Below, piece by piece: positions 1,285 through 39,412 of a stretch of DNA of 64,000 bases. The notes beneath the pieces were generated by a model. It worked only from the letters and a program-made list of their open reading frames with translations, was not told where the DNA came from and did no database searches. Where the stretch lies: assembly GCA_036874045.1 (NCBI GenBank), contig CM072337.1, positions 4,960,001 to 5,024,000 on the forward strand. The letters are read 5' to 3'. Each line of letters begins with the position of its first letter. Position 1 is the first letter of the stretch. A program made the translations under genes and the position numbers. This DNA is from Cymodocea nodosa (taxonomy: Eukaryota > Streptophyta > Magnoliopsida > Alismatales > Cymodoceaceae).

Positions 1285-4200
1285 CAGTTGATGCTTACAT
1301 AGGATGTAGAGATGGGTCTATGCAAATAGTTTATGGTGACTCTAAGGTTGACTTAAATATTTTTGGAGCACATCATGAAATAAAATCTTTAACTAATGGG
1401 AATTTTCAGGTGAGTTTCATAGATGAAGCTTTAGATGATGATGAAGGAGAGGAAAATTCCATGTTAAGTAGTGAGGAATCTTATCCACCCGAGGAAGAAA
1501 GTGACATAGATGTTGAGTCTGACTTAGCTATTGAGGATGGTTTAGGGAGTGATCATGTTTGTGAAATGAATTTCATCGAACCATTGGTGAGCGACGTGAG
1601 AGAGGTGAAGAAACTGTCCATAGTGGAACCGCCTTTATTAGATTTGAAACCTGTTCCTCAGGACCTCAAGTATGCCTTTTTGGGAGAGGGAGATATTTTG
1701 CCAATCATCCTATCTTCCCATCTTTCTGTTGAGCAAGAGGAAAAGTTATTAGAGGTTTTGCAATCACATAAGGAGGCCATTGGTTGGACCATGGCTGACA
1801 TAAAAGGGATTAGTCCGAGCATATGTCAACATAGGATTCACGTAGAGAGTGATAGTACTCCTTCTAGAATTCCACAAAGACGACTAAACCCAAACATTAA
1901 GGACGTTGTAAAGAAGGAAATCATCAAGTCATTGGATCATGGCATAATTTATCCTATATCCGATAGTTCTTGGGTTAGCCCTGTACAGGTAGTCCCAAAG
2001 AAGTCGGGTATTATGGTAGTTGAAAACAGTAGCCATGAGCTTGTGCCCACAAGAGTGCAAACGAGATGGCGGGTATGTATAGACTATAGAAAGCTTAACA
2101 CCACCACTAGGAAAGATCACTTTCCTTTACCTTTCATGGACCAAATGTTAGAGAAGCTAGCGGGATAAGAGTATTACTGTTTCTTAGATGGTTACTCTAG
2201 CTACAATCAAATCCCCGTCGCACCTTGTGATCAAGATAAGACCACGTTCACTTGTCCATTTGGTACTTTTGCATTCCAGTGCATGTCTTTTGGTTTATGT
2301 AATGCTCCAGCAACATTTTAAAGGTGCATGACTAGTATGTTTTCGGACATGGTGGATAAATTTTTAGAGATTTTTATGGATGACTTCTCTATATTTGGAC
2401 CTTCTTTTGATTCATGCCTTTAGAATCTGGAATTAGTATTAAAAAGGTGTATAGAGAAGAGATTAGTTTTAAATTGGGAAAAATGTTATTTCATAGTTCA
2501 GCAGGGTATTGTGCTGGGTCATGTAGTATCTAAGAATGGGTTGGAAGTTGATAAGGAAAAAGTAGATCTCATAGCCAACTTACTAATTCCTAAATCAATA
2601 AAAGATATAAGAGCATTTTTGGGCCATGCAGGCTTTTATAGACGGTTTATCAAGGATTTTAGTAAAATCGCCCGTCCTTTAACGCTACTATTATCAAAGG
2701 ACACATCATTTGAATTTTCAAAAGATTGTCATGATGCCTTTGAGGAGCTTAAGAGAGTCTTAGTCTCTGCACCTATTATGCACCCTCTTGTTTGGTCTCA
2801 CCCATTCGAGTTGATGTGTGATGCCTCAAATTATGAAGTAGGGGCAGTTTTAGGACAAAAGGTAGATAACTTACCTAGGGTGATTTACTATGCAACAAAA
2901 ACCTTAAACGCGGCCCAAGTAAATTACACTGTTATAGAGAAGGAATTCTTAGCTATAGTGTTTTCCCTTGAGAAATTCTGCTCTTATTTGTTAGGGTCAA
3001 AAACTATCATTTACACTAATCACTTAGCTATCAAGTTCTTGTTAGCTAAACAAGATGCAAAAGCTAGGCTAGTTAGGTGGATCCTCCTACTCCAAGAATT
3101 TGATATAGAAATTCGTGATAAGAAAGGTAGTGAAAACATTGTGGCTAACCATTTGTCTCGTCTTCTCACACCTCAAGAGGGAGTACCAATCAATGACTCA
3201 TTCCCTGATGAACAATTGATGATGGTAACTCCAACCCCTTGGTTTGCTGACATTGTAAACTATTTGGTGACAAAGCAAGTGCCTAAAAATTGGTCAAGCC
3301 AACAAATTAAGAGATTTATGACCAAGGCAAGAGAATATCATTGGGATGATCCATATCTTTTAAAATCTTGTCAAGACTTAATTATTAGAAGATGCATCCC
3401 TGACACTGAAGTTCATAGTGTGCTATTTTTTTGTCATGACCAACCTACACGTGGTCATCTCAATCCTCTCAAGACGGCCACAAAGGTTTTGCAATGTGGT
3501 TTCTTCTAGCCCACACTGCATAAGGATGCATACTCTTTTGTAAGGAACTATGCTGAATGTCAAAGGGCAGGTAAACTTACAAGGAGAAACATGATGTCGC
3601 TCACTCTTATCATTGAGATAGAGATATTTGATGTTTGGGGCATTGATTTCATGGGACCATTCCCTAACTCTAGAGGCTTCATGTATATTCTCTTGGCCAT
3701 TGATTATGTGTCAAAATGGGTGGAGGCCATACCCACTCGTACTTGTGACTCAAAAGTCATAGTAAATTTTATTAAGAGTCACATTTTTGCCAGGTTTGGT
3801 ATTCCATGAGCAATTTTAAGTGATAGGGCACCCACTTTTGTAACAGGAGTTTTGAAGCATTAATGAAAAGATATGGTGTAACGCACAAAATGACTACCCC
3901 TTATCACCCGCAAACAAATGGGCAAGTGGAAAATGTGAATAAACAAATTAAGCAAATTCTAGAAAAGATAGTAGGAAAGTCAACAAAAGACTAGGCTGAA
4001 AAGTTAGATGAAGCATTATGAGCTTACCATATAGCATATAAGTCAGTTTTGAAAATGTCCCCATATAGAGTAGTGTACGGAAAAGCATGTCACCTACCGG
4101 TGGAACTAGAACATAAGGCCTTATGGACGATAAAGAGGCTTAATTTGAATTTAAAAGTTGCTGGTAGTAAAAGATCTTTCCAACTAGTTGAGCTAGAAGA

Positions 4201-4477
4201 AATAAGGCGTGAGGCATATGAGAATTCGAGTATTGCTAAGGAGCGAAACAAGGTGTTTCATGATAGCAAGCTTTTACACAAGGATTTTGAAATAGGGCAG
4301 TAGGTATTATTATACAATTCCAGATTGCATCTTTTTCCTGGAAAACTCAGATCTAGGTGGATTGGACCTTTTATGGTTAAAAGTATATTCCCGCATGGAG
4401 CTATGGAAATAGAAGACCCTAAGAGTGGAAGCTTAACTAAGGTCAATGGCCATCGTCTTAAACCATTTTTGCAGTAG
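1285..4477 (+). pseudogene. pol: Element A pol: PR remnant, RT, RNase H and integrase of Athila-type Ty3/gypsy
   Basis: Polyprotein for reverse transcription and integration, now broken. Order: the last protease residues (about 1285-1370), an acidic linker (1400-1640), then RT with the Athila hallmarks WRVCIDYRKLN, DHFPLPF and FLDGYSSYNQI and the catalytic FMDDF at 2373-2387. RNase H starts around FELMCDASN (2803). The integrase has an HHCC remnant, then VWGIDFMGPF, a second Asp in SDR (about 3822) and Glu in GQVEN (about 3925). No chromodomain follows; it ends at LKPFLQ-stop (4475-4477). In-frame stops lie at 2166, 2319, 2421, 3507 and 3807, with more after 3990. Most are explained by C-to-T or G-to-A. 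A one-base loss near 3827 shifts the frame. Gag and most of PR are absent upstream because the LTR at 1-1284 lies there. Confidence 0.9.
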
Positions 4478-4751
4478 GGTTTCATGGGTCGTGGATCTAG
4501 TATGGATTTAAGCCTTGCTGTTTATGCGTAAACATCCAGTAGTTTTATTTCTTTTCTTTTATGCTTCTGTATGATTGTTGTAATATTTATTTACTTCCTA
4601 TGTGTTGAATTGTGTATTTAATTTTGTGTAAAACTCGCTCCTCATTTTGTTTGATGATGTAGGTATTGGATACCTAGATCTCCCCAATGCGAGTATCTCT
4701 TATAGTTTACTAGTATTCTTACTCATATTTTTGAGTGATTGTTTTATTTTT
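4478..4751 (+). other. Short spacer between pol and the downstream gag of element A
   Basis: Only 274 bp separate the pol stop from the gag ATG. I see no LTR, PBS or PPT here, so the two genes are not joined across an element boundary. A TAG/GT at about 4661 preceded by a pyrimidine-leaning stretch could be a splice acceptor, and TGTATTTAATTTTG near 4610 is TATA-like. Both are weak. Confidence 0.6.
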
Positions 4752-5287
4752 ATGAAAACCTCTGGTTGGGTGAGAGATAGTACATCAAGACTAGTTAGAG
4801 GGAGGATTAGAAACGAGCATGGTAAACTAGATAGAGTGGAACCCATGGCAAACCAAGAATTACAATCACTAGAGGATATTTGTTACCCTAGGGTTCACAA
4901 TCACCCATCTTGTTTGTACTTACCACCTATAGATGGGAAAAAATTTGAACTTCATATGAACTATGTCAATCAATTGCCCCATTACCATGGATTAGACAAG
5001 GAGGATGCATATGTCTTTTTAAATGACTTTAATGATGTGTGCAATATGGCCAACTTGCCAAATGTGCCAATAGATGCTGTCAAGCTTAGATTTGTGCCCT
5101 TCGCTCTTCGGGATGATGCAAAACTTTGGTTGCACACCTTGCCAGCCGAGTCCATCCGTACCTGGACCAACTTTTGTGTTGTTTTCATAAAGAAATTTCA
5201 CCCTTTGCACAAAACAATCCAAGCCAAGAATGCAATCTTAGGTATTAGCCAACAACTCAATGAACCCTTTTGGAAGTATTTTAAGTG
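4752..5287 (+). pseudogene. gag: Element A gag (capsid), 5' part, interrupted by Sirevirus G
   Basis: Structural capsid protein of an Athila-type element. I choose the ATG at 4752 because the encoded start (M, T, W-R, RLVR) matches the start of the gag at 30959 in element B; the frame is open further upstream to 4647. Visible landmarks of the plant Retrotrans_gag family: PSCLYLPP, FELHMNYVNQLPHYHGL, EDAYVFLNDFNDVC, LRFVPFALRDDAKLWL and IRTWTNF. The frame stays open to 5287, where the copia LTR begins, and continues at 17741. Collapsing the 5-bp duplication restores the frame, so the gene was in frame here when G inserted. Its place after pol is abnormal. Confidence 0.88.
5283..5287. other. 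Left target-site duplication of Sirevirus G
   Basis: AAGTG immediately left of the 5' LTR pairs with GAGTG at 17741-17745 right of the 3' LTR, one mismatch in five. The copy lies in the gag reading frame. Confidence 0.8.
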
Positions 5288-6504
5288 TGTTAGGTATTTA
5301 ATTTTGATGATGTATGCTTTATTACCGTATTTAAATAAGTCTACATAATATTCTCTAAGTATATTTCTCTATGTATAATAGTTAACAGATTATCGAAAAG
5401 TTTCATTTTTATGTCGGATAAATTAAAGATTTCCGAAGAGCTAGATTTGCAATAGTTAAACTTTCGGATAGTTAACGTTTCGTTTTTGTCGAATACTTTA
5501 TGTTAAAAACTCGTATAGTTAAGTTATCCGCACGTGTGTTTTTAATGTTTTAAGTTGTCACGTGTTTTCCATATACGTTCGGTAATGAAAAATCGAATAG
5601 TTAGATAACTGTTCGAGTTTTTATATGCATGGATAGATAACTGTTCGAGTTTTGTAAAAGGACTAACGAACAGATAAGTTTCCTTGTTTAGTCACGTGTT
5701 TTGCAGGTGCAAGAACTCGAAGAGTTAAAGGATAAGTGTTCGAGTTTTGACAGAAGTTAAAGGATAAATGTTCGACTAAATCGAAGACTTAGAAGATATT
5801 CTACAAGACTCCAAGAAGAAAAAACTTCGGTGAATCTACGAGTGGAGATCGTGGAAACTCAGATTGTCAGTAAAGAAAGTGGAAATTTAAAGAGAGTAAT
5901 TTGGATTAAAGAGAAAATTAGTACGTGGATTATGGATTATGGATTGTGGATCAAGTGGATGAACATGCTGAACGTGAAAGACAACAGAGTTCGACTACTA
6001 ATAGAGAGTACGAGCTACATTACAAGCAGGATTCCAATCTCAAAAACCAAGTCTGAATGTTCAATCTAGATCCCTAACTGAAAAGTTAAGTTTGAATATT
6101 CATATTCTGAAAAGTTCTCCAACATCAGAAGAAGTTTGAAATTCCAAGCAATTTTAGAAAAGTAGCTGCAAACGCAAGAAGTCTGGAAATTCGACAACTG
6201 GAGAAGAAGAGATACAGAAGCTGAACAAAGAGAAAGAAAAGAGCTGTGTGCATAAAGATCAGGTTTTATACAATTCAAAATTAGTTTTGAAAAAGAGCTT
6301 TGTTTTCCTATTTGAATTGTATATCAAAAATTACTATATCAAAATCGTCAAGAAGGGAATTGAGCTGAAAAGATATTGTAAATTTTGTCTTGAAATAAAA
6401 GAATAGAATTTCATTTACGAGTATTTTGTGCTCTTGTTTTATCCGTTAGTTTAATTACTAAAGACACAATTCACCCCCCCTCTTGTGATACAGACGATCC
6501 TACA
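5288..6504 (+). repeat. 5' LTR of Sirevirus G
   Basis: Direct copy of 16508-17740. It starts TGTTAGGTATTTAATTTTGA and ends GACGATCCTACA. U3 holds repeated CGAATAGTTA / ACTGTTCGAGTTTT inverted motifs (5590-5660) and G-boxes (TCACGTGT near 5560 and 5692). It lacks a short ATTATGG repeat unit that the 3' copy has near 17150. Confidence 0.95.
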
Positions 6505-6506
6505 AC

Positions 6507-6518
6507 TGGTATTAGAGC
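6507..6518 (+). other. Primer-binding site, initiator tRNA-Met type
   Basis: TGGTATTAGAGC two bases after the 5' LTR. It differs by one transition from TGGTATCAGAGC, the initiator-Met PBS seen at 51830-51841 and 59232-59243 in elements C and D. Confidence 0.9.
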
Positions 6519-6608
6519 ATTTTAAACTGTTTAAAGCATTCGAAAGCCTTCATTTCTTTATTTAGGAATTGGTTTTTCCTGTCATTTACTTTGAATCATC
6601 TGTTTAAA

Positions 6609-8595
6609 ATGGATAATTCTGAAATCTTAGTTATGACTGAAGGACAGACCACTAATCATCCTCCTATGTTCGAAGGTAGCAATTATGGCTACTAGAAATA
6701 TAGGATGAAAGTATTCTTTCAGTCAATGGATTTCAAATTATGGCATATAATTAGCAATCATATAGTGTTAGTTACGACTCCATATGATACTTGGACTTTT
6801 GATGAAAAGGAGCGAATGACACTGAATGCTAAAGGTTTAAACATCTTGTTTTATGCTTTATCTCATGATCAATTTAATAAAGTTTTTGCATATCAAACTA
6901 CATATGAGATATGGCATGCATTAGATGTTGCCAACGAAGGTACTAATCAGGTCAAGGAATCTAAGATCAATATGTTAGTACATAAATATGAGCTTTTTAA
7001 AATACACGAAAATGAATGTATCTCTAACATGTTTTCCCGTTTTCTTGAGATTGTAAATTCATTAAAATCTTTAGGCAAGAAATTCGAGGAAAAAGACTTG
7101 GTAAGAAAGATCCTTAGATCTTTAACTAAAATTTGGGCTCAAAAGACAACATCTATTTAAGAGTCCAAAGACTTAAATACATATACTCTCGACGATCTCA
7201 TAGGAAATCTAACAGCCTATGAAGTACAACATTTAGATCCAAAAGGAAAAAATCCTAGAAGGGATCTGGCATTTGAGGCTGATAAAGTCTCAGATGTCAC
7301 TAGTGATTCTAACGATGATTTATTGTTGTTGACCAGAAAATTTAGAAATCTGTTGAAGAAACGTAGGAACTTCAGGTCAGCAAAGACATCTGGAGATATG
7401 GAGAAGAAGTCATTCACGAAAGACAAAAGTATATGCTACAAGTGCAACAGGCTGGGTCACTTTCAAACTGATTGTCCTCTCAACAAATATAAGAAGAATT
7501 CGAGGAAGAATTTCAGGAATAAGAAATTCAGAAAGAGAAGGGCGCTTAAAGTGACATAGGATGACTCTTCAGCTTCACAAAGTGAAGAAACAAAGGATTC
7601 AACATCAGACAATGAATCCTTATCAACATTAGATTCAGAAGAAAATCTGGCAAATGTATGCTTTATGGCAAAATCCAGTGAGGTATCCTTTGATTAAAAT
7701 GCTAATTTTGATAGTTTTGATGGATTACTTGTTGAATACAATAGACTGGCCAGAAAATATAAGAAAGTCAAAATAGAAAGAAAGGACACTAGGAAAATGC
7801 TAGATGAATCTGAAAATAAGATTGATTTTCTGAACTCTACGTTGAATAAATTTAAAGAAGAAAATCAAAGGCATGCACAGGAAATTTTAAAGTTCACTGC
7901 TATAGAAAGAAAATTGCATGTTGATTGTGAAAATTTAATTGCTGATAAGAAAAAAAATGATCTATGAAATTGAAAAACTGGAACTGACTATTACTGATTT
8001 AAATTCAGAAATTGATGTGTTAAAGATTAAAGTCTGCGATCAAAAGGCTATATTAAGTAAATGGAATAATAGTCAAACTTTAACAAATGAACTCAGTAGT
8101 AAAATATCAAATGTAGAAAAACATGGTATTGGTTTACACGATGCATTTTCTGAAAATTATATATTGCATGATGGTACTGCTAAAAATAATGTCTTTATTT
8201 CTAGTACTAAGAATAGTAAGAGAAAAACTATTTCGTGTGTAATCAAAAAGGGAGAAAAATATGTGCAAATTGATGAAATGCAGCATATAAATGATAGCAC
8301 ACAATGCAAGAATTTCAAAAGAAATCTTCAAAAGAATCAAGCTAAGACATTTGAGAATTTTAATATTCTTGATCAATTTTCTTCATATTTAAAGAATATC
8401 AGATATTGGAAATCAAATAATGTCAGAAATGAAAATTTCAACTTTGGTTTACATGGAGATAAATGTTTTGATAATTATAACACTAAGAGAAAGAAACGCA
8501 AAAATAATTATCAGAAAATAGATAAGTTGAAGTCTAAAAATATGGATTATTTTGATATGACTCTCTCTAAAATTCTTGGACCCACTCAAAAATAG
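6609..8595 (+). pseudogene. gag: Sirevirus G gag with zinc knuckle and long coiled-coil linker (broken)
   Basis: Copia-type nucleocapsid/capsid precursor. The start at 6609 matches the beginning of gag in C and D by position. UBN2-like gag landmarks are visible (LWHIISNHI, TWTFDEKER, YEIWHALD, KINMLVHKYELFK, FSRFLEIVNSLKSLG). A CCHC knuckle (CYKCNRLGHFQTDC) lies at 7434-7475 after a basic stretch. After it comes a Ser/Asp-rich and then Lys/Glu-rich segment with heptad-like coiled coil (about 7720-8090). In-frame stops occur at 6693, 7158, 7557 and 7695. An A-run near 7950 shifts the frame; the last piece is open from 7939 to 8595. D carries the intact version (58080-59045). Confidence 0.85.
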
Positions 8596-8908
8596 GTTCC
8601 AAGAGATAAAATCTCTCTTTAACTGTTTTGTAGGTACACAAATCAAAATGGATAATGGACAGTGGAGCATCCAGCCACATGACTAGAGATATACGATTAC
8701 TTACAGAAATAACAAAGACCAAGAACGGACAAGTTACCTTTGGAAATAAAAGCAAAACAAATATCCTTGGGTCTGGCAAGGTTCAGGTAACTTAGAAATG
8801 TTTTATAAATGATGTCTTATTAGTTGAAAACTTAGGTTTTAATTTATTGAGTGTTCCTATTTTAATGAAGATTTATAGAGTAATTTTGAAAAAGATTCCT
8901 ATAAAATT
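8596..8908 (+). pseudogene. Sirevirus G aspartic protease (broken)
   Basis: Retropepsin-like protease between gag and integrase. The active-site block WIMDSGASSHMT is encoded from 8649, then QVTFGNKSK and FNLLSV. It sits in a frame different from both the linker before it and the pol ORF after it. It has a stop near 8793 and shifts near 8870-8900, so it cannot be made as one piece with pol. Confidence 0.82.
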
Positions 8909-11731
8909 ATGGACATGACTACAAACAAAGTTTTACTCACTGCATACAAGAAAGGATCTGTTTGTATTCTAAATTTGCCTTCTGATATTATTAAAGACAA
9001 TGCTTGCTTAATTGCAAAATCGGATGAAGTCATTTTATGGCATAGAAGGCTAGGACACTCAAACTTAAAATTATTACAAAAGCTATCTAAAAAGAATCTA
9101 GTTAGAGGTTTACCTAGTATTAAGTACTCGAAAGAGTTTATGTGTGATGCGTGTCAACTAGGTAAGTTACATAAAACATCCTTTAAAAGTTTAAATGAAA
9201 TAACAAGCAAAAGAGTATTAGAACTAGTGCATATAGATTTATTTGGACCTACTAGAACAACCAATCTAGGAGGTAAACATTATACTTTTGTACTAGTTGA
9301 TGACTATTCTAGATTTACTTGGGTCTATTTTCTAGCTAATAAAATTGAAGTTTTTGAAATATTTAAGATATTCTGTAATAAAGTTCAGAATGAGCAAAAT
9401 GTTAAAATTCAAAAACTTAGGAGTGATCATGGTACAGAATTTGATAATGATCAAATGGACACCTTTTGTGAAGAATTAGGCATAGATCATAGGTACTCAT
9501 TTCCAAGAGCTCCTTCACAAAATGGGATAGTAGAACGTAAAAACAGATCACTTCAGGAAATGTCCAGAACCATGTTAAATGAGAATAAGTTACCCCTTTT
9601 TCTCTGGGCAGAAGCAGTTCATACAGCATGCTATGTTATAAATAGAGTACATCTAAGACCAATTTTAGATAAAACTCCTTATGAGATATGGTATAACAGG
9701 GTTCCCAAAATAAGTTATTTAAAACCCTTTGGTTGTAAGTGTTTTATTTTAAACACTAAGGAACGAAGAGACAAATTTAAAGCCAAATTAGATGAAGGGA
9801 TTTTTGTTGGTTATTCCATTAGAAGTAAAGCATATAGAGTTTATAATAAATCAACAAAAACCATTGAGGAAACCCTGCATGTGAAATTTCATGAAAATTC
9901 TCATTTGGATTTAAGACATGTTGAAAACTTTGATTCAGAAATTCTCCCAGAAATAGTACCAAATGATGTTGATAGAGAAATTGATAGATTATCTGACGGA
10001 ACAAGAAATCTAAATTTGAATGATGAAAATTTAGAAGAAAATAATGTCATACCTATAGAAAATATGGAACAACATAGAAATTGGCGTTATGCTTCATCTC
10101 ATCCTATTGATCAGATAATAGGCGATCCTAATCAAGGAGTTAGGACTAGGTCATCAGTAGTCAACATTTGTGGTGTTTATTCATTTGTTTCATTACTAGA
10201 ACCTAAGAAAATTGAAGATGCCTTAGAAGATGAATTTTGGTTTTTAGCTATGCAAGATGAGCTAAATCAATTTATAAGAAATGAGGTATGGGATCTAGTT
10301 CCACCACCTGAAAATCAATCCATAATAGGAACAAGGTGGGTATTTAGAAACAAAGTAGATCAAGATGGACATATAGTTAAAAACAAAGCTAGATTAGTTG
10401 CTCAAGGTTACAAGCAAGAGAAAGGAATTGACTATGATGAAACATTTGCTCCTGTTGCTAGACTAGAATCAATACGAATTTTGTTAGCATATGCTTGTTA
10501 TATGGATTTCAAATTATATCAAATGGATGTTAAGACTACTTTTTTAAATGAAAATATAAAAGAAGAAGTGTATGTAAAACAACCTCTAGGTTTTGAAGAT
10601 TCAAAACATCTTGAGTATGTTTACAAGCTTAAGAAGGCACTATATGGCCTTAAACAAGCTCCTAGGTCTTGGTATGAAAGATTATCTAAATTTCTTATGG
10701 AAAAAGGGTATTCTATGGGAAAGGCAAATCACACTCTTTTTATCAAGAAGATCGAAAAAGATATATTAGTAGTTCAAATCTATGTAGATGACATCATATT
10801 TGGAGCAACAAATGATAAATTAATTGAGTCCTTTTCGAAAGACATGACTAATCAATTTGAAATGAGTATGATGGGTGAACTATCATTTTTCCTAGGCTTA
10901 CAAATTAAACAATTAGATCAGGGTACTTTTATTTCACAAGAAAAATATACTCAAGATTTATTAAAGAGGTTTGGTTTAGACAACACTAAAACAAAGAATA
11001 CACCAATGAGTACTATCACCAAGTTGGATAAAGATGACTCTAGAAAAACTGTAGATGTAAAACAATATAGAAGTATGATTGGTTCATTACTCTATTTAAT
11101 AGCTAGCCGACTAGATATTATGTTTAGTGTGTGTACTTGTGCTAGATATCAATCAAATCCTAAGGAATCACACCTACTTGCTGTTAAACAAATTTTTAAA
11201 TATCTATTAGGAACCATCAATTTCAGACTATTTTACTTTAAACACAGTTCTTTAAACTTAGTAGGTTATAGTGATGCTGATTTCGCAGGATGTAAGTCTG
11301 AAAGAAAAAGCACCAGTGGCACTTGTCAATTGTTAGGTAATTCTTTAGTGTCATGGTTTAGCAAAAAGCAAAATTGTGTAGCATTATCTACAACTGAAGC
11401 TGAATATATAGCTGCTACACTTTGCTGTGCTCAAATCCTGTGGATCAGACAAACCTTAAAAGATTTTAATTTAAACTATGAATCAACTAAGATTTTCTGT
11501 GATAGTAGTTCTACAATAAGTTTATCTAAAAATCCTGTCTTACATTCACGAGCAAAACATATAGAAGTTCGACATCATTTTCTAAGGGATAATGTTATAA
11601 AAGGAAAAATAGTATTAAATTTTGTTCCTACCACAGAACAATTAGCAGATCTATTTACAAAACCCTTAGATGAAAATACATTCTCAAAATTACAATTAGA
11701 ACTTGGTATCTGTAGGTTATCTGATATTTAA
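8909..11731 (+). CDS. pol: Sirevirus G pol: intact integrase, reverse transcriptase and RNase H, 940 aa
   Basis: Uninterrupted 940-codon ORF covering the catalytic core of a copia element. The pre-integrase zinc finger has H45, H50, C79 and C82 (WHRRLGH...CDAC). The integrase DDE triad is D110 (HIDLFGP), D173 (SDHGTEF) and E209 (NGIVERKNR). RT runs from about 455 with [27 protein letters not shown] and the catalytic YVDD at 625-628. RNase H has D789 (YSDADFAG), E830 (STTEAEY) and D865 (CDSSS), ending in the usual copia tail [14 protein letters not shown]. The true precursor begins upstream in protease; the first ATG at 8909 is only where the open frame restarts. Everything upstream is damaged, so a full polyprotein is not possible, but these enzymes look complete. 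Confidence 0.93.
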
Positions 11732-12822
11732 ATGGCCCTGTTCATTGTATTTTGGTTTGTTATAAGGTAGTTTTAGAATTTAATGTCTTTATTATTAAAA
11801 AAAAAAAAAACAACAACAACAACATTTCTATTTTCGAATTACAATTTTCTGGTAGTTAAGAATTTATGAAATTTTGATTTTTATTGAAGTCAATTTATTT
11901 AAGAAAAATTCAGAAAAGATTACTTAAGGAAAAGTTAAATTGATTCAATGTGAGTGCCAACTATATTTTTGTTACTTATGTATATGCTATTACAGAGATT
12001 TTAACAGGAAAATACATAGAAAGTATGTACTTTTTATTAAAGGAAAGTTATTAACATTCTGTTAGAAAAATTAAGTCTTGCGGTTGCCTCTAATTTTAAT
12101 TTACTATCTTGTTTTATTTTTTTTTTTATCTGTAATTACTTGAGTAATTAAGTCCGTTGGGGGATCTTAAACCCTAGTCACTTAAACCAACTGGTTTGGG
12201 ATGTGCTGACTGAAAACTCATTTTGCAAGTAATTCAGATTATATTTAAAAAAAAATTTTTTTTTACCTGTTCTCACTTGTCATTGAGTAGTTGGTTATCT
12301 TTTCCCTAAGCAAGGGATTATGATCACGTAAAAAGATGATATTGTGGGAGGTAATACATAAAATATATATATATGAATATAAAAAAAAAAAAAAAAAAGA
12401 ACAAAAGGGGGCAATGTACTCAAGCTTAATTTATCTGTCAAGGTGTTATAACAATCCTGACATAATCTATGCATATAATCCTTGTTATTTTTTTATTATC
12501 TACTCTTTACACATAATATACGATATTTATTTGTCTTAAGTTGTGTACTCATTATTGAAATCTTTTAAGTTTCTGTAAGTATATCTCTATGAATTATCTT
12601 TTGTAAACTAAATAAGATAAAAGCCAAAAAGTCTAAATTGTTAACTCTACTACTTATTTCTGTATTTCATTCAAATTAAAAAAAGAAAGAAAAAGGAGAG
12701 ACTCAAATCTATTTAAGGCTTAGCATCCTCTTTAAGTAAGCTATTTGACCTTTTTAAGCCAACTCTACTTAGGGCTTGGCAACCCAGATTAAGTACGCCA
12801 TAGATTCTTTACACTACATTTA

Positions 12823-12835
12823 TGTAGGGGGAGCA
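12823..12835 (+). other. Internal polypurine tract of Sirevirus G
   Basis: TGTAGGGGGAGCA, found in the same place (between pol and accessory ORF) in Sirevirus C on the other strand at 45649-45661. It is purine-rich like the PPTs at the 3' LTR, so it could prime plus-strand DNA internally. Confidence 0.6.
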
Positions 12836-12899
12836 ATTTCTCGTATAATAATTCATAACTTTTGAACTATTATATGTTTTCATGAAAGAATCTACATAA

Positions 12900-13510
12900 T
12901 TTCAGGAAATACACCTTAATTAAGTACATTTCTAAACTGTCGATGACTTGCAGGTATTTTAATTCTTAAGTATCCGAATTTTCTATTGTTTCGGCAAGTT
13001 ATATTACAAGTATCAAACAGTTGTGTTTTAAAACGTTCAATAGACTATTTTATTATTTCCTGAAGTACACGTGTTGTGATCTAGATGATTAACTTAAGTT
13101 ATCTTTCCGAAGGTTATCTGTAACTCTCTGAAATGCACCTGAGCATTGGATAGTTAGGTTTATAAGTCTCCGAAACTTTCTGAACACCTTAAGTTCAAAT
13201 TGTGCACGTGTTGAATTTCACTACTTTATAATGTCTCAGTCGAAACTCGAACAGTTATGTTTAAATCTTCGAGTTTTCACACCTATTCCTTCGAGAAACT
13301 CGAACAGTTATCATAAATCTTCGAGTTTTCTCACTTTTTCACTTAGCCTGAAGTTATTTTCTTTATATGCACAATTATGCTAAGTATTCTGCAATTGTTG
13401 GTTGTAAAACTTATACAGTTATTGCAAGCACTCAAGTTATTTATCGGTAACGGATCTTATATTTATGATTTCAATGATTGAATCTGTTTATCCATTTATA
13501 AACTCAAAGA
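12900..13510 (+). promoter_or_regulatory. Promoter-like region before the Sirevirus G accessory ORF, homologous to gypsy B/E LTR U3
   Basis: Shares a 29-base identical run (13046-13074) with the E LTR (40660-40688), plus flanking matches such as TTCTTAAGTAT.CGAATTTTCT and the unit GAAATGCACCTGAGCAT..GATAGTTA. It contains G-boxes CACGTG at 13068 and 13205 and paired motifs AACTCGAACAGTTAT / CTTCGAGTTTTC (13250-13330). ATTTATAAAC at about 13494-13503 is TATA-like, 118 bp before the accessory ATG. Promoter activity is inferred from position and from homology to an LTR U3. Confidence 0.6.
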
Positions 13511-13620
13511 TTTATGAATGTTTTCCTAACAACCTTTCGTGTTTCTACCTTGGTAAAACCCTAGCTTCACAATCTTTCCTTCCACTAAGCTCTACAGTGC
13601 AAAGCGAAGATTAATCAACA

Positions 13621-16181: not shown

Positions 16182-16444
16182 TTATACAAATTATGTATTA
16201 CATGATTTATTTTTTGTAATTTGTAACCAAAACCATTATGTAAACTGTTTACTGATTTTAATGTTACGTGATTATTTTTCACAGTTTATGATATTAAACA
16301 GTTTTTGCTTAATCCATAAATCCTATGTATGATTGACACTATCGTTTTGATTAATATATACTTAGTAAGATATCCTTCCTTACATTTATACAACTTAACT
16401 TCCTAAAGAGGGAGAAAATAGTTTGTTTACTTTTTTATAATGCC

Positions 16445-16507
16445 AAAAAGGGGGAGATATAAATTATGTGACTTATTAGGTTTTGACATCATCAAAAAGG
16501 GGGAGAT
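16445..16507 (+). other. Pair of polypurine tracts before the 3' LTR of Sirevirus G
   Basis: AAAAAGGGGGAGA at 16445-16457 and again AAAAAGGGGGAGAT at 16494-16507, the second directly touching the 3' LTR. Doubled PPTs are a known Sirevirus feature, and both are also doubled in C and D. Confidence 0.9.
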
Positions 16508-26537: not shown

Positions 26538-26576
26538 CTTCCCCCATACCTAAATTTTGCTAGTCCCTTAGCAAAC
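26538..26576 (-). other. Polypurine tract of element B
   Basis: On the reverse strand GGGACTAGCAAAATTTAGG then TATGGGGGAAG, immediately before the 3' LTR. Same layout as A at 20444-20468. Confidence 0.88.
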
Positions 26577-29619: not shown

Positions 29620-30959
29620 TCATTCAGCTACCCTCCTAGAAGAGGTATCAATTTCATTAACAGTTCTATTGACAGGGTTAGGTATTGCTTGTATTGGCAA
29701 TCCTCTAGTAGGTCTACCTTCCGTTGGTTCTTTCTGTCTAAGTGGTATATTTCTATTCTGATTTTGAATTGCAGCATTTCCAAATACAAAATCTAAACGA
29801 TTGTTTAATTGTTGGATTATCTTTTCTAATTTCTCTATTCTAGATCATTGTTCAATTAATGCTTCATAACTTATATTCTTCTCATTTACATTTTCTCCTC
29901 CCTAGAAATTGTTGTTTCTCCAAGATAAATTCGGGTGATTTCTCCAATTAGGATTATAAGAATTTCCCAAGTTCTCTCTGGTTTCTAGCATAAATAATAT
30001 TTAAATCATTTATGTTTACATTCTTTTCTGCTAGCTTTTGATTTAATGATAACTCTTCTATTTTCTTTGTTAATTCAGTTAATTTCACCTCAAGCATAGT
30101 ACTTGAATCTATTTCATGCATTCCTCTAGGCAATATTTTTTATCTGCAATAGCTTCAGCCAAGTTTTCCCACTATGTAGTTCTTTTTGCAAAGTTTTCTA
30201 AATATGCCCATGCTTCTTCACTACATAACTTTAAAAATCCATTTTGAAAGTAGATTCTAATAAAGATTTTGTTGAAACATTTATGCCTTCATAAATTATA
30301 CTTATTAATTGTGCTTTACTCATTGCATGATGCAGACATTGAGTCAGTAAATCTTTAAATCTTTCAAAATATTTTTAGAATGATTCACCCTATTTTTGGC
30401 TACACATTAATATTTCTTTTTTCTTTTTAATCGTTTGATGTGTTTGATAATATTTTTCCAGAAAAATAGAGTAAAATTCAGTCCATGTAGAAATTGAATC
30501 AGGCGATAGAGTATATAACCATCTCTTAGCTGTGTCTTTTAAAGAAAAAGGGATATATCTAAGTTTAATAGCATCTATACTCATGTTCGACATTTTCATC
30601 AATTGACAAACTTCATTAAATTCTCTAAGGAAATAATAGGCATCCTCTCTTTCTAATCCATGAAAATGTGGCAATTGACTAATATAATTAGATTTCAGTT
30701 CAAACCTATCTCCTTCAAAGTTTGGCAATCGAATACATCAAGGTTCATCAACTAATTCAGGATACAGAATCTCTCCTAATGGTTTTTCTATTGGAACAAC
30801 CATTTTTACGTTCTCTTTTAAAGAAAGGTTAGCTACACCCCAAAGAATTTTGTTAAAGTTCAGTTCAGAAAATTTTTCAGTACTCCTCTACAATGAAAAT
30901 TCCTGGGTAGGTGTTCTTACTAATCGTTTAGTGCTTAGAGAACGGGTCCATGTGCTCAT
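29620..30959 (-). pseudogene. gag: Element B gag (capsid), located after pol, broken
   Basis: Capsid gene of an Athila-type element read from ATG 30959. The start (MSTWTRSLSTKRLVRT) parallels the A gag start. Landmarks: FELKSNYISQLPHFHGL, EDAYYFLREFNEVC, LRYIPFSLKDTAKRWL, SISTWTEFY, then NSYNPNWRNHPNLSW and a C-terminal helix with IEKLEKIIQQLNNRL. Stops lie near 30890, 30735 and 30390, with shifts after 30390; the last stop is 29620-29622. No CCHC knuckle is visible in it, unlike A gag; a knuckle is found instead in the ORF next to the PBS (39196-39237). Gag is about 3.7 kb downstream of the pol stop. Confidence 0.85.
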
Positions 30960-31908: not shown

Positions 31909-34143
31909 AATCTCTATTCCTAAGTTCATCTACTTCCTTCTAGAGTTTTTCTAATTATAGCTCTAATTGATTAATTCTTACTACTACTCCTGTAATTCCT
32001 CTAGAAGGTACAGCTAGCTCTACAGCTACAAAATTTCTGTATTCTTTCACTAAAATGGATCTAGATCTGATCCTTTTTTATGTCCGTTTAGTGAAATCGA
32101 TATAGTCCACCATCAGTAGTGGAATCAAATCTCCATAAAACAATTTTTTCTTCATTGTTTTCAGCTTGGAGATAAAAACTGCAGACCAATTTATTTGAAT
32201 CCTATTTACAACTGCAAATGTGGCCCATTTGACAAATTGACTTAATTCTATGTCATGGCCTTGTCATTGATAGACATTCTTAATCAAAATGTTGGCTACC
32301 ATGTGTGCTTTACCATTTAAATGCTTTAGTCTGTTTAATAAAGGCACACCAGGGTTGATAGCCAAACTGTCCTTTATTTCTTGTTCTGTCCATTCAACGG
32401 TAGTTGTGTCTTCCAAAATTTTTAGTCCTTCATTCTTTAATCTAAAAATGTTGTGTAGATGCTCTAGTGTTATTTGTACATCAGCTTCCTCCACGTTGGA
32501 AATTAATCCTCCTTCACTTTCTCTTAAATTTGCATAGAAACAAGGCACTAAATTCTCATAAACTACATGCCCTCTTTCTTGAGAAATAAAATTCAGTAGA
32601 CCTTGGAATTCAAATAAATCTTTGATTTCTTGCATTCCATCCCAATTTACTGGTCCACTGTAAATAATATCGTAACCCCTAATTTCTTGATATTTGATAT
32701 AAGCTTCCTGACTCCAAAAATGTACTTCATTCAAAACTATTGTTTCAGTTGGGTCAGGAATGTAACTTTGTTGTTCTAGAGGGGTTTGTTCTTGATCTTC
32801 CTCTACTATAGGCTGCATTTGAACATGCTCTACAGATTCCTGAATTTTTGCTTTCGCTTTTGTCTATGGTGGTGAGCCGGCAGAACTCTTTACTCTATCT
32901 TGAATTCTATCCATAAATTGCTGAAGAGTTTCTTGCTCTTCAATGGAATCTGTAAAGTTATTTTTGTCCAAATGGCTTATTTCAACCTCTTCATTTTCTG
33001 CTCTTTCTTCTTTCTCCTGACTACCAATCTGCTCTGTCACTATTCTTTCTGATTCTGTAATAGATTGGGATGGAGTCACGAGCAATTCAGTTTCTGCCCT
33101 AATTTCTGTTCTTTCTTCTTGTACAGATTGCAAACTAATTTCAGCCTGTTTTTCTTCTTCTCTTTGCTCCTGCTGCTGCAGCTCTTGCTCCTCCTCAAAA
33201 TCGGATAGCAGGTTTATAAAAATTTGCTCCACAGGCCCTGTTAACATTGGTACTTCAGATTTAATTTCCTCTCTATATTTAGGCACTTTCTCTTTTCCTT
33301 TCCTTTTTCTAATTAGTTGTGCTTGTTCTTCCTCTTCTTCTTCTGAAATTAAATCTACAAAAGTAGGTTCTACAGGCCTTCGAGCCATAGGTACTGGCTC
33401 TTCCGGTTTAATTCTCTCTATAATTACTAGTCTCGAAGGACCAACCTCAGCTTCTCTTGAAGCACTTGATTTAACTGCTGCCTGATGTTGCTTAACCTTA
33501 ATTCTGTACTAGGCCCTCAACTTTTCTTCGACCCTTCTTCTCTTAATGGCATCATATAAAATATGTGCCTTAGCTGTAGCTATTTCTTCATTATCACCTT
33601 GGTCTCTTGCTATTTTGACCAAGCTAGTAAACTCTTTTTCTTCTTCATTAGTTCTTGGCCAAGCAAATGCTACTCGTGGCAATGGCTCTGTTGGCTGAAC
33701 TAGAGGTCCTGATTGTTGTTCCTCAGGAACAGGTTTTTCAGTAGTCAGTTCTTCCTATTCTCCTGCTCGTTGCTGCTCCCATATTACCCAACTTCCATGA
33801 CCAGCAATGCATTTTTTAAACCACAATCTAGCTTTACGTTGAATTAGCTCTAGGTCTCTTCGTTGCTTGGCCGGATTTTTCTTTCTTTACTAACTGCAAT
33901 TTCTGTTGCCACTCTAATTCGTGTCTCCATTATCTAAGGTATTTGTATATCCAAATCAACCAAAACTTTCCTTAAGTTAAAGAGTTCTGATTCTACCTTT
34001 TGTAGCTCTTTCTCTCTTGTTGTATTCCGAATCTTTTGCCGCGTGTGCCATTCTTCTAATTCCTTCAGAAACTGTGCAGTGTTAACTACCTCTTCCCAGA
34101 ATTCAGGTGTCATCTTCCTCATCGTGGAGTTACACAACAGCAC
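31909..34143 (-). pseudogene. Element B accessory ORF (plant-transposon-protein-like domain), broken
   Basis: About 745 codons after pol, the gypsy counterpart of the Sirevirus accessory ORF. The start near 34143 (or 34122, MRKMTPEFWEEV) leads into a coiled-coil-like segment, then after a frame change near 33870 WFKKCIAGHG, a Pro/Glu-rich middle (EEEEEEQAQ, PVE.. repeats, 33388-32864) and a conserved C-terminal domain: FEFQGLLNFIS, VPCFYANLRE, IFRLKNEG, EIKDSLAINPGVPLLNRL, LNGKAHMVANIL and NRIQINWSAVF. Stops near 33930, 33755, 33510, 32864 and 32264. Same domain as in G, C, D and F. Role unknown; no catalytic motif recognised. Confidence 0.78.
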
Positions 34144-34213: not shown

Positions 34214-34401
34214 TTTAGTTTAAATAAGCCCTAAGTTTAGGTGGGTAATCGGGTCATTTCTCGAACCAACTATTGCTTTCTCATCTGTGGTCTTAGCTAC
34301 AGTACTCTGTTGAGTTACAGTTAACTCAATGAAATAAGCTCGTTGACTAACTCAAGACTCAACGGAGTAAGTTCGTTGAGTTAAGCATAACTCAACGGAC
34401 T
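34214..34401 (-). promoter_or_regulatory. TATA-like box and inverted repeats before the element B accessory ORF
   Basis: On the coding strand a cluster of TAACTCAACGG / CGTTGAGTTA repeats (34401-34308) is followed by CTTATTTAAACT (34228-34217), about 75 bp before the ATG. Sirevirus C has the same order: TAACTCAACG repeats, CTATTTAAAC (45224-45215), then its accessory ATG 58 bp on. This is promoter-like by position; activity is inferred. Confidence 0.55.
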
Positions 34402-34642
34402 TCCCATACAAACAGATATAATAATAAAAATACTACAGATAATAGTTTTCTTTTTTTTTTTTACCAGTTTAACCGATACTATGTTTCGGTCAGACCTAAT
34501 TTTTTTCTAAAAATTAATATACATATTTTTTATGTTCCAATCATACCGATGGATCCGATCGGTTGAACTGCAACAATTTTTATTTTTCATATTTTTTAAT
34601 ATTTTTTTTTATATATATATAAACATAAAAATTGATTTCTTA
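34402..34642 (-). repeat. Hairpin-rich block after element B pol, copy of the block in layer F
   Basis: Matches 22710-22930 (see there). It includes ACCGATACTATGTTTCGGT and CCGATGGATCCGATCGG inverted repeats and a TATATATA run. No gene. Confidence 0.65.
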
Positions 34643-37600
34643 CTAAGTAAAGCTCGAGTAGTACTTTACTCTAACTTCTTCTATAATTCCAAATGAGCTT
34701 TTTGGTGTTTTCAGAATAGGTCTAAGTCTTTGTCCATTTACTTTAAATATATTCTGATTTTTAGGATTTTCAATTTCAATAGCTCTATAAGGATAAATAT
34801 TTCGATCTATGTAAGGTCCTAGCCATCTAGATCTTAATTTTCCTAGATGGTTATGGAGTCTAGCCATATAAAGATATACTTCTTGTCCTATTTCAAAGCT
34901 ATTTGGAATAATTTTTCTATCATGCCAGAATTTCATTTTCTCTTTTTCTCTTACAGTCTTCGAATAAGCTTCATTTCTAAATTCTTCTAATTCAATTAAT
35001 TGCATTTTTCTATTTTCAACAACTTAATTTAAATTAGTGTTCAGAGTTTTTAATGCCCAATAAGCTTTATGTTCTATTTCAGTAGGTAAATGACAACTTT
35101 TTTCATATACTAGCCTAAAAGGTGACATATATAAGCTCGTTTTATAAGCAATTCTATAAGCCCGAAGTGCATCTACTAATCTATTAGCCCAATCTATTCT
35201 AGTAGGATTTACTACTTTTTCTAAGATTACCTTAATTTGTTTGTTTGCACTTTTTACTTGTCCACTTGTTTGCAGATGATATGATGTTGCAATTTTGTGG
35301 TTTACTCCATATTTCTTCATTAAGGCTTCAAAACTTCTATTATAGAAATGAGTTCTTCTATCACTAATAATAGCTTTAGGTATTCCAAATCTGGTAAATA
35401 TATTTGTTCTTATAAATTGTTTTACCACTTTGTTGTCATTAGTTTTTGTAGGAATAGCTTCTATCCATTTAGATACATAATCCACCCCCAACAATATGTA
35501 ATTAAATTGATTAGACATAGGAAATGGACCCATAAAATCTATTCCCCACACATCAAAGATTTCAACCTCAACAACAAGATTAAGAGGCATCATATTCCTC
35601 TTTGATATTCTTCCTATTTGTTGACATCTTAAACAACTTAAGCAATATTTATGAGCATCTTTGAATAGTGTTGGCCAATGAAACCCACATTGCAGAATTT
35701 TTGCAGCAGTTTTCCCTGAACCAAAATGCCCTCCACAAGCTTGATCATGACAGAAAGACAATATGCTCGGATATTCAGTTTTTGGAACACACCTCCTTAA
35801 AACTAGATCAGGACAATTCTTAAATAAGTATGGGTCTTCCCAATAGTAATAATTTAGTCTTGAGAAAAACAATTTCTTATCCTATGTATTCTAATCCTTA
35901 GGTGTTAAACAAGTAACTAAAAAATTAATTATGTCTGCATACCAAGGTATTGTGTTGATGGTCATTAATTGTTCATTAAGAAAATTATCCTTAATTTCAA
36001 TATTTGATTTTTCTATTTGTAATCTTGATAAATGATCTGCTACTATATTCTCACAACCTTTTTTATCTTTAATTTCTAGATCAAATTCTTGCAATAATAA
36101 TATCCATTGGATCAATCTAGGCTTAGTCTCTTTTTTCTTTATTAGATGATTTAGAGCTAAATGATCCGTGTATACTATTACTTTAGCTCCAATCAGATAT
36201 GATCTAAACTTTTCTAAAGCAAACACAACTGCTAATAATTCTTTTTCAGTAGTTGTATAATTAACTTGAGCATCATTTAAGGTTTTGCTTGCATAATGAA
36301 TCACTCTAGGAGATTTTTCTATCTTCTGTCCCAACTCTGCTCCTACAGCAAAATCAGAAGCATCGCACATTAATTCAAATGGATGGTTCCAATCAGGTGC
36401 TTGAATTGTAGGAGTTGAAATTAAGCTAGTTTTAAGTCTGAAAAATGCTTCCTTGCAATTTTTATCAAAGTTAAATGGAACATCTTTTAATAGATTAGTT
36501 AAAGGTCTAACTATCTTGCTAAAGTCTTTAATAAATCTTCTATAAAAACCAACATGTCCTAGAAATGATCTAATATCTTTTACTGATTTAGGTTCTGGTA
36601 GATTTGCAATTACTTCTAATTTAGCTTTATCTACTTCCAACCCTTTCTTAGAAACAACATGCCCTAAGACTATTCCTTGTTTAACCATGAAGTGACATTT
36701 TTCCCAATTTAAACCAGATTTTTTTCCACACAGCGTATTAATATTTTGTCTAAATTTTTTAAACACACTTCATATGAGTTGCCATATACATTAAAATCAT
36801 CCATAAATATTTCTAAAAAATCTTCAGTCATTCCAATGAATATGCCCTACATACACCTTTGAAAGGTGGCTAGTGCATTGCAAAATCTGAATGGCATTCT
36901 CTTAAAAGCATAAGTTCCATTAGGACAGGTGAAAGTTGTTTTCTCTTGATCCTCTAATGATACTTGAACTTGGTTATATCCTGAATACCCATCTAGGAAA
37001 CAAAAATATTCTTGCCCTACTAATTTCTCTAGCATTTGATCTATAAAAGGTAAGGGAAAATGATCTTTCCTAGTTACAACATTCAGCTTTCTATAGTCTA
37101 TACACACTCTCTAGTCTGATTGAATTCTAGTAGGTATCAAGTCTTGACTTTCATTCCTAATAACTGTTAATCCTGATTTCTTAGGAACTACATGGATTGG
37201 ACAAACCCACGAGCTATCAGAAATCAGATAAATTATGTCATTATCTAACCATTTAACTATTTCCTTCCTGACTACTTCTTTAAGGTTTGGATTTAATCTC
37301 CTCTCAGGAATTCTAACAGGTTTAGCATTCTCTTCTAAATATATGTGGTGACAATATAAAGTTGAACTTAACCCTTTTATATCAGTCATAGTCCATCCTA
37401 TTGCTTCTTTATAACTTTTTACTATATCTTTTAATTTAGCTATTTGATCCTTTTTTAAATCTAAAGTAATAATGATTGGACATGTTCATTTCTCTTCCAG
37501 AAATATATAGGTTAATTCAGGAGGTAAAGGTTTTAATTCTAAATGTTGCCCATCAGAAGCTAAAGCTCCTAATTGAACATCATCATTTTCTAACTTAATT

Positions 37601-38793
37601 TCTTCCAGATCTCTTTCTATATTTATGCTTTCACTTTCTTCTAAAGTTTCAGAATTGATTTGCCTATTTAATTCTTCTTGAATCACATCATCTAACATAT
37701 CTCCTTCATCCTCTAAAAAGTCTATGGTATGTAAGGACATTTCTAACTCCTCAAATCTTTCTAGTTTGAAAATATTTAATTGAGTATCCTTATTACCATA
37801 TGCTAACTTCATTACTCCAGTCTTACAATTTATAACAACCATTGATGTTGCTAAAAATGGCCTTCCCAAAATTAAAGATGTATCACTATTTTTATGTTTA
37901 ATTTGTTGGGAATCCAGAATTACAATATCAATAGGATATATAAAGTTTTTAATTTTAATTAAGACATCCTCTATTTTTCCTCTAAGGTATCTTATACTTC
38001 TATCAGCTAATTGAATAACCGTACTAGTAGAAGTTAAGCCTTTTATTCCTAAGGATGCAAATATATCACTTGGCATAACATTTATTCCTGCACCTAAGTC
38101 TATTAAGGTTCTTTCTAGAATGGTATTTCCTATAGTGCATGATATAACAGGGATTCCAGGATCAGATAACTTTTTAGGAATTTGTGGCAGAAATAGGGAA
38201 CTACTCTGCTCAACTAAAAAGACATTTCTAAGAACTTTTCGCTCTCTTTTCTTAGTACACCAATCATTTAGAAATTTAGCACAAGGTGGCATTTTCTGCA
38301 ATAAATCTAACAAAGGAATGCTAACTTGTACTTTTCAAAAATTTCTCTGATTTTTTTTGTTTTTCAGGTATTATTTGTTGTAATCTTTCAAGATAGGGTG
38401 CTAAAGATTGTGATTACAAATATTCTTTTTCTTTCATTTGATTTGTTTGATCATTTTTAGCTTCATTAGTAGATTTAGATTGTTCTTCAGTGATTTCTAG
38501 ATTTTCAGCTATTACATTTTCATTATCATTTTGATTTTTACTCTTATCCACCTTCATATTATTTTCATTTTGAGTTCTTGGTGGTATATTGTTCCAGATC
38601 TTAATGTTACACATACATCTTCCAGATTTTCATTACCCTTATGATGTTTTTGTATATCATTTTCGTGATTATGATCTTCAATTGTTCTTAGTTTTAAATT
38701 GCATTCTTTAAATTCTTTTGCATTAATATTTTATGTTTGCTGTATATTTTGCAAATTATGTAGGTTTATAATATTATAATTTTCATTATCCTG
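34643..38793 (-). pseudogene. pol: Element B pol: protease, RT, RNase H, integrase (Athila type)
   Basis: Reverse strand. A Glu/Lys-rich linker, then protease with LIDLGAGINVMPSD (Gly in place of the usual Ser after DLGA), RT with CIDYRKLNVVTRKDHFPLPF, FLDGYSGYNQ and FMDDF (36807-36793), RNase H from FELMCDASD, and the integrase with CHDQACGGHFGSGKTA, CLSCLRCQ, VWGIDFMGPF and SDR. The third acidic residue of the integrase is Lys (GQVKSAN) where A has Glu, a G-to-A change that should kill it. Three one-base losses between 38600 and 38330 together restore the frame. One more loss near 36717 shifts it for the rest. Stops near 37486, 37108, 36845, 35889 and 35022. The C-terminus ends RVKYYSSFT with no chromodomain. 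Confidence 0.9.
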
Positions 38794-39285
38794 TTACATA
38801 ACTTGTATTTTCATTGTATATTCATCTAATGCTTTTAATTTTATTTCCAGATCATCTAATCTCATTGCATTCAATTTTTGATCAATTTTCATTATGGTTT
38901 TTTCAATTTCGTAGATTATATCCTTTTTAGGTTTTGAATATGCTTCCTTATAATTTAATTGGTTGACTTCTTGTTGCTGACACATAAAGTGTTCTAGTTT
39001 GTCTAGGTTTTGCTCTATACTACGCTCTAGTCTGTCATACCTATCCCAAACTTCAGTGTCTCTCAACATATTACACATTCTATACTGACCATTAGTTGGG
39101 TAAACTATAGGATTCTCATACTCAGCTCTATTATACTGAGGATAATTCATTTGTTGTTCATGGGATCTAACCATCTACAAACATCTCAATTTCAAACAGT
39201 CAAAAATGTCGTGTCCTTCAGAATTGCAGAATTCACATATGCTAATTACAGGTTTCAGAAATCTTTGAGCATAAGCATATGCCAT
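38794..39285 (-). pseudogene. Element B 5' ORF with CCHC zinc knuckle, directly after the PBS
   Basis: Starts at ATG 39285 (MAYAYAQRFLKP), 110 bp after the PBS, so no capsid gene fits before it. It has a perfect C-x2-C-x4-H-x4-C knuckle (CEFCNSEGHDIFDC, 39237-39196), which in retroelements binds genomic RNA, then a coiled-coil-like helix (RYDRLERSIEQNLDKLEHF) and a Lys-rich end. One stop (CAG to TAG) at 39175-39177, another at 38794-38796, after which pol continues in the same frame. E carries the same ORF at 60635. It looks like a nucleocapsid piece without a capsid domain. Confidence 0.8.
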
Positions 39286-39355
39286 ATTCTCAAATATAGA
39301 AGAAAACACACAACTCTAGCGATTAAAACGAAACAGCTCTAATAGTTGCTTATAT

Positions 39356-39394
39356 TAATTCAATTCAATTCTATTCTATTCAATTCAATTCAAT
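39356..39394 (-). repeat. AATTG/AATAG pentamer repeat next to the PBS
   Basis: On the element strand about eight pentamers of AATTG with two AATAG variants follow the PBS directly, in the untranslated leader of element B. Confidence 0.75.
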
Positions 39395-39412
39395 TCCCCG
39401 GCAACGGTGCCA
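39395..39412 (-). other. Primer-binding site, tRNA-Asp type
   Basis: TGGCACCGTTGCCGGGGA on the reverse strand, complementary to the 3' end of plant tRNA-Asp with one difference (A for G at position 5). Seven bases separate it from the LTR. This is the usual PBS of Athila elements. Confidence 0.88.

Follow-up and report, generated by a model that had tools for sequence, protein, structure and literature searches.

Pol and gag in elements A, B and F

We analyzed a 64,000-nucleotide stretch of the Cymodocea nodosa genome (374,616,459 bases, 28 contigs), hereafter the window (C5:4960001-5024000), which is filled with nested and broken elements (Table 1). Among them are Athila-clade Ty3/gypsy long terminal repeat (LTR) retrotransposons, here called A, B and F, whose capsid gene (gag) lies 3' of the integrase (IN) as a separate gene; that this represents an old, constrained plan is a reading to which we assign a probability of about 0.88. 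The layout is common to diverged families. One frame, which opens about 110-125 bp past the primer-binding site (PBS) in B and F and behind a longer leader (about 0.9-1.4 kb) in L045, L046 and L048, carries a zinc knuckle, the motif LRSGK, protease (PR), reverse transcriptase (RT), ribonuclease H (RH) and IN, and a separate frame 3' of IN has its own ATG and the capsid domain. The pol frames of the copies read were broken by stops or frameshifts or were read in part, and no capsid domain was found in them.

In element A, the IN frame ends at a TAG (4475-4477) and the gag ATG (4752) stands 274 bp beyond the end of pol. Repeat and PBS-pattern searches (+ strand) revealed neither an LTR repeat nor a PBS pattern between the two, as the sequence-only reading had proposed. 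The pol frame of this copy is interrupted by stops, and its gag is split at 5288 by a Ty1/copia insertion and continues at about 17741; the nested element itself keeps the usual order (Retrotran_gag_2 in 6696-7157, RVT_2 in 8879-11728). An intact separate gag was identified in another A copy (L033:1504-2868, 455 aa, with a zinc knuckle and the C-terminal sequence ...GELPSNTIPNPCMTNVHVVQGEIRGFDP). This frame ends at GELPSNTIPNP, and a like motif occurs shortly before LRSG in L009, a canonical Athila outgroup that encodes gag-PR-RT-RH-IN in one 2004-aa open reading frame (ORF); judging from these motifs, the canonical polyprotein seems to have been divided between the two frames near this point. 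The 5' part of A, upstream of F, carries a zinc knuckle (CFKCKLNDHLASDC), LRSGK and the start of the protease. A capsid domain was not found in this part (L042:5901-8320), where gag queries match the zinc-knuckle region at E 0.06-0.09, and the PBS and 5' LTR of A were not located. An AlphaFold model of the A capsid part, built with four sequences, was unusable (predicted local distance difference test score, 46.6).

Element B reads PR-RT-RH-IN, accessory ORF, gag, F-box ORF and 3' LTR on one strand, which agrees with the earlier placement of gag behind pol and the accessory ORF, and its PBS indeed lies about 110 bp from the pol ATG. An oppositely oriented B-type LTR truncates its 5' LTR at 40322; because both window copies are broken, the window alone is insufficient to settle the order. 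The B capsid piece was therefore considered genome-wide: the best 150 of 5397 candidates were scored (identity 92-100% throughout), and about 20 kb around 10 of those 150 was fetched as paired stretches (seven from the first nine rows and three from lower down, one of them adjoining the window). PR, RT, RH and IN lie upstream of gag on the same strand in all 10 loci, with B LTRs flanking both sides within the fetched stretch in seven. The zinc knuckle is intact in three copies (L017, L025 and L027). The C12 copy has a target-site duplication (TSD) with one mismatch (gtagt/gtggt); the other B copies were not resolved in this respect. Element E, of which the window holds the start of a B-type pol, is interrupted beyond the window (C5:5024452) by another B-type element, and the gag of that second element (C5:5035080) is again downstream of pol.

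Element F, read in L042 and L031 upstream of the window, provides a copy with both ends, in the order LTR-PBS-(zinc knuckle-PR-RT-RH-IN)-(gag)-polypurine tract (PPT)-LTR. Its 5' LTR lies at C5:4950321-4951907, and its 3' LTR begins at L031:7739 and ends at window position 1277; a third, shorter aligned part of the LTR pair is 100% identical. F was inserted in the protease of A, which resumes at 1278. Its pol ATG is 125 bp beyond the PBS (TGGCGCCGTTGCCGGGGA), and the pol frame, broken by stops and a frameshift, runs through a zinc knuckle (CSYCHVKGHDESIC), LRSGK, PR, RT, RH and IN. Only about 150 aa precede LRSGK, and the zinc knuckle lies close to their beginning, which leaves little room for a capsid domain. 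The gag frame, which has stops, lies 309 bp past the IN stop (PF03732, E=5.2e-20) and is followed by a purine tract and the 3' LTR. Tandem elements that had lost an LTR between pol and gag were considered and rejected, as F is bounded by LTRs and a TSD and its sole recognizable gag is 3'.

Table 1. Features of elements A, B, E and F and of the nested Ty1/copia element, in window positions
Feature	Position	Strand	Evidence or remark
F 3' LTR, most of it	1..1277	+	98.4% over 1,072 bp and 97.2% over 177 bp to 5' LTR in L042; ends ...CAACA
F TSD, CTCGC	1278..1282	+	Same 5 bases before 5' LTR (L042:8316-8320); perfect 5-bp TSD
A end of protease, RT, RNase H, integrase	1278..4477	+	PF17917 E=4e-31; rve E=3.5e-5 (below its cut-off); tblastn
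A pol-gag spacer	4478..4751	+	Contains 3' splice site-like TAG 4660-4662
A gag, first part including capsid domain	4752..5287	+	Retrotrans_gag PF03732 E=6.4e-12 in frame 4632-5345
Ty1/copia element inside A gag	5288..17740	+	LTR pair 5288-6504/16508-17740, 95.7%
A gag remainder with zinc knuckle	17741..18376	+	17801-18373 89% identical to L033:2092-2664
B 3' LTR (TGTTTAGAATGA...AAACA)	24292..26537	-	93.3% to 39419-40322; start at 26537
B PPT (ggtatgggggaag)	26538..26550	-	
B F-box ORF, 309 aa	28500..29429	-	PF00646 E=1.1e-6; in 9/10 B loci
B gag, downstream of pol	29620..30959	-	PF03732 E=1.2e-7; ATG 30959; broken in window copy
B accessory ORF	32264..33508	-	Weak PF20167 match, E=0.011, 16 bits vs cut-off 45; in 9/10 B loci
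B protease, RT, RNase H, integrase	34643..38334	-	Asp_protease_2 E=9e-5 (just below cut-off); RT_RNaseH E=3.6e-35; rve E=5.9e-13
B pol start, zinc-knuckle region and spacer	38414..39285	-	Capsid domain not found; pol ATG 39285
B PBS (TGGCACCGTTGCCGGGGA)	39395..39412	-	
B 5' LTR, truncated at 40322	39419..40322	-	
E, start of B-type pol	60609..64000	+	93.2% to 39311-35924

The F-box ORF lies after gag in B elements (the window copy and L011-L030) and has stops in six of the seven copies compared. Polerovirus P0 offers an analogy for an F-box protein acting against silencing, and by that analogy the B protein, a captured ubiquitin-ligase adaptor, perhaps has such a role. An LFEFQGL-like stretch is common to accessory proteins of Ty3 type (B, 32264-32863, - strand) and of Ty1/copia type (15066-15341, + strand; 43534-43719, - strand), a likeness that suggests exchange between superfamilies. 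Two related units lie head to tail on the - strand at 42352-53519 and 53518-60606; they are Ty1/copia-like by similarity to 5288-17740, and the second is without parts of the first.

Order of protease and gag across the genome

The capsid part of A was likewise used as a genome query, with the best 150 of 5323 candidates scored. RH and IN are directly upstream of gag in all four A loci read (L032-L035, where L032 is the window's copy), and IN is upstream of gag in all six further loci selected for divergent gags (L036-L041, 57-74% identity to A). With nine gag loci read, representing about eight families, the order is not confined to two families as the sequence-only reading had it. In one of these loci (L037:1-1731), a natural deletion has fused the integrase frame with that of the gag behind it, leaving a single open frame.

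The order was further examined by locating PR places with the canonical L009 protease, a query expected to favor canonical elements and whose result could have gone against a reversed order. Gag places were taken from the A capsid query (best 150), the L009 gag (103 matches) and the Pfam gag model (best 150), with some overlap. Among 129 genomic PR places, 59 had a listed same-strand gag within 6 kb, and the nearest was downstream in 58 and upstream in one. The PR-to-gag spacing in the 58 has a median of 3,062 bp, with 50 of them at 3.0-3.45 kb, which gives room for RT-RH-IN. Leaving out the Pfam gag model places, the count was 52 downstream and two upstream, and none of the 129 PR places had a gag within 3 kb upstream among the gags listed.

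A window crowded with nested and broken elements does invite the explanation that a gag fragment came to lie after pol by chance in A and B, through local rearrangement or assembly artefact. We consider this to have a negligible chance of being correct, given the same order in 10/10 B loci, in 10/10 A and other gag loci (window's A counted) and in 58/59 PR-gag pairs, the narrow spacing, and an element F that retains both LTRs and a TSD. These counts also uphold the conserved pol-gag order that had been put forward. If A and B were local rearrangements, most full-length copies were expected to show gag between PBS and PR; the copies read, a set short of a full LTR/TSD census, do not show this.

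The region before PR was inspected in four fetched stretches (L045-L048). In three of these (L045, L046 and L048), a PBS-like site is followed by a leader of about 0.9-1.4 kb and by a frame that carries a zinc knuckle and LRSGK (two of the three read LRSER or LRSGR instead), and no capsid domain was found before PR in them, the gag-query matches in L046 being confined to the zinc knuckle (E 0.004-0.02). The fourth, L047, had neither PBS nor pol frame and is uninformative. No Pfam family was found in L031:30-2111 at E up to 0.01, though the B protease matches there at 2e-58 (tblastn). A capsid domain hidden in the 5' frame was rejected as an explanation, as Pfam found none in the B pieces and F has little room for one. 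The pre-pol leaders of L045, L048 and L042 contain long stretches 78-87% alike between families, which is high for non-coding DNA.

Alternatively, the downstream gag could be an extra copy, and canonical gag-pol elements located elsewhere in this genome could provide the working capsid in trans. In Arabidopsis, pol-less Athila families are believed to depend on others (PMC2410132), and as only best-scoring gags were listed, canonical ones could escape. An intact canonical element would give a frame of about 2000 aa, whereas no match listed for the L009 gag (103 matches) or the Pfam gag model (best 150) lies in an open frame longer than 677 aa, a test that decayed canonical copies would escape. 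One 1076-aa frame among the best A-gag matches belongs to a copy with an integrase-gag fusion by deletion, still with pol before gag. Together with the lack of listed gags within 3 kb upstream of the PR places and the signs of constraint on the downstream gag described below, this makes supply in trans very improbable.

Athila relationships, age and constraint

A, B and F have PR followed by RT-RH-IN of the Ty3 type. In F and B, a tRNA-Asp type PBS stands beside the 5' LTR (the F site recurs with a few changes in B copies, L045, L046 and L048, and none was found for A or L047), and the PBS of Diaspora and Calypso likewise pairs with tRNA-Asp (PMC1142308). F further has TG..CA LTRs, a PPT and a 5-bp TSD. 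Assignment to Ty1/copia fails for all three elements, since IN follows RH and the gag is of the PF03732 type. What is lacking for the Athila clade is a gag upstream of PR (GAG-PROT-RT-RH-INT). The premise of a gag-pol order in known Ty3/gypsy elements is in line with the International Committee on Taxonomy of Viruses profile, which gives the Metaviridae order as gag-pol(-env) (PMC7879559), and with Neumann et al. 2019 (PMC6317226). By sequence, enzymes, PBS and LTRs are thus Athila-like, and the gene order we read departs from the clade, breaking a rule thought general. Searches of open-licence PMC papers on the order itself and on neighboring topics (F-box, splicing and env) listed no report of a reversed pol-gag order. 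Neumann et al. treated elements whose domains came in an unexpected order as likely mispredictions, which were "in every case removed", and reversed-order elements may therefore have been hidden from such surveys.

The canonical Athila elements (Athila, Diaspora, Calypso and L009/L010) resemble the present ones in PR/RT/RH/IN sequence, PBS type, TG..CA LTRs and gag zinc knuckle, and their gag is homologous (L009, 40% to the B capsid part). They differ in having gag-PR-RT-RH-IN as a single polyprotein, such as the Diaspora gag-pol ORF of 1892 codons (PMC1142308), in place of a separate gag frame after IN. L009 and L010 themselves are plant-type Athila sequences, 99.7% identical, on contigs of two bacterial assemblies (NZ_QPKJ02000021.1 and NZ_JABGCL010000066.1), which probably represent contamination. 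The env-like ORF of Athila relatives is also 3' of integrase and probably has its own message, but the 3' gene here is the capsid gene, and B has more ORFs around it.

Gag pairs were compared among seven loci (A, G2, F, L037, L038, L039 and L041; B left out). In 20 of the 21 pairs, synonymous differences of 0.72-0.89 per site were near saturation, with nonsynonymous differences (dN) of 0.17-0.65; the close pair G2/L037 gave a ratio of dN to synonymous differences (dN/dS) of 0.10. Synonymous near-saturation combined with protein conservation indicates that the shared order was probably in place before these families diverged; the substitution pattern points to purifying selection on the downstream gag. 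Among B copies, most of which are decayed, dN/dS was 0.12 for the capsid (eight copies), a value biased low by ranking on amino-acid identity, and 1.24 for the C-terminal piece of gag.

A gag tree of 35 rows (LG+G4) separates the nine own gags, together with P0001, P0122 and P0123, from canonical gags by a 100/100 branch, with P0001 nested among the own gags. An RT tree (49 of 111 rows) places A, B and F among Athila-type rows with open forks and long branches, where only the grouping of F with P0002 is strong (100/96). P0002 is a metagenomic pol protein, possibly partial, whose start does not show the end of a canonical gag. These four proteins provide a lead, at the level of sequence similarity, that the order may be present in other species; two scans of viral contigs revealed no relatives.

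Expression of gag and implications of the order

As a spacer (A, F), or an accessory ORF as well (B), separates pol and gag, gag cannot be a simple readthrough product, and the intervening stops and spacer imply that it would need its own message. A 3' splice site-like CAG or TAG with GTAAGT, GTGAGT or GTATGT no more than 60 bases behind it stands before gag in four of eight families (A, G2, L040 and B), where shuffled sequences would give 0.8 (P ~0.003), and TGCAG is conserved about 75-105 bp upstream of the pol start codon in A, L045, L046 and L048. These splice-like motifs hint at a single leader that gives rise to two spliced messages, while the full-length RNA serves as genome, and a spliced gag message appears likely on this basis. 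Gag could instead be expressed from unspliced RNA by reinitiation or internal ribosome entry, or from an internal promoter, which would fit the short spacer of A and F (about 274-309 bp) and the lack of an identified leader donor in F or B. The acceptor-like sites before both gag and pol and the accessory ORF that lies between pol and gag in B argue against it, and we regard unspliced expression as rather unlikely, though a serious contender.

Foamy viruses (spumaretroviruses) make Pol apart from Gag and package it via RNA, with gag remaining 5' of pol. In the present elements, the pol frame begins ahead of PR and no capsid domain was found there, an arrangement compatible with a foamy-like, Gag-free translation of Pol. 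Pol would be translated from full-length or leader-spliced RNA, unfused to Gag, and, following this analogy, would enter particles via RNA bound by its own zinc knuckle, replacing the Gag-Pol fusion; Gag would be translated from a subgenomic, probably spliced RNA with its acceptor just upstream of the ATG. The likeness lies in this proposed separate Pol and RNA-mediated packaging, drawn here from sequence, and no kinship is claimed; the difference is that gag is 5' of pol in foamy viruses and 3' in the present elements.

The reversed order may have arisen once, early in the lineage, by gain of a second gag 3' of pol (for example, by recombination with a gag-only Athila), after which the 5' gag would have lost its capsid part and kept the zinc knuckle. 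Pol-less Athila of Arabidopsis carry gag or gag plus env, and their recombination with pol-bearing Athila is documented (PMC2410132). Being gag-bearing and recombining, such elements are a plausible donor of the second gag; they differ in being without pol, and a reversed order is not described in the accessible text of that paper.

Several points weigh against an old, constrained pol-gag plan. The evidence for it is sequence only, and the F and B copies read are all broken, none with a full-length intact pol frame. The gag tree was flagged for long branches, and the plan does not account for the pre-PR spacer of B (about 330 aa). In the order test, one PR had its nearest listed gag 4.6 kb upstream (that gag is 3.07 kb downstream of another PR), and 70 of the 129 PR places had no listed gag within 6 kb, places that are uninformative on order because only the best 150, 103 and 150 gags were listed. 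Two loci followed 4.2 kb downstream of PR (L043 and L044) showed no gag, but RT or RH and then other DNA. Finally, the pre-gag pattern was picked post hoc and is present in just four of eight families, and no donor was spotted by eye in the short leaders of F and B.

A broader proposal is that a whole old lineage follows an inverted plan, with pol first and gag last, a splice acceptor for each, the dosage of capsid and enzymes set by alternative splicing in place of a Gag-Pol fusion, and Pol packaged through its own zinc knuckle; for this fuller picture we would give even odds. If the inverted plan is true, surveys that discard odd domain orders would have missed such elements in other plants as well. 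A gag 5' of pol has been treated as fixed in Ty3/gypsy elements, where the usual Gag-Pol fusion accounts both for Gag being in excess and for Pol being packaged. A successful lineage without that plan would mean that it is not obligatory, and would provide a natural system for understanding how Pol enters particles without Gag.

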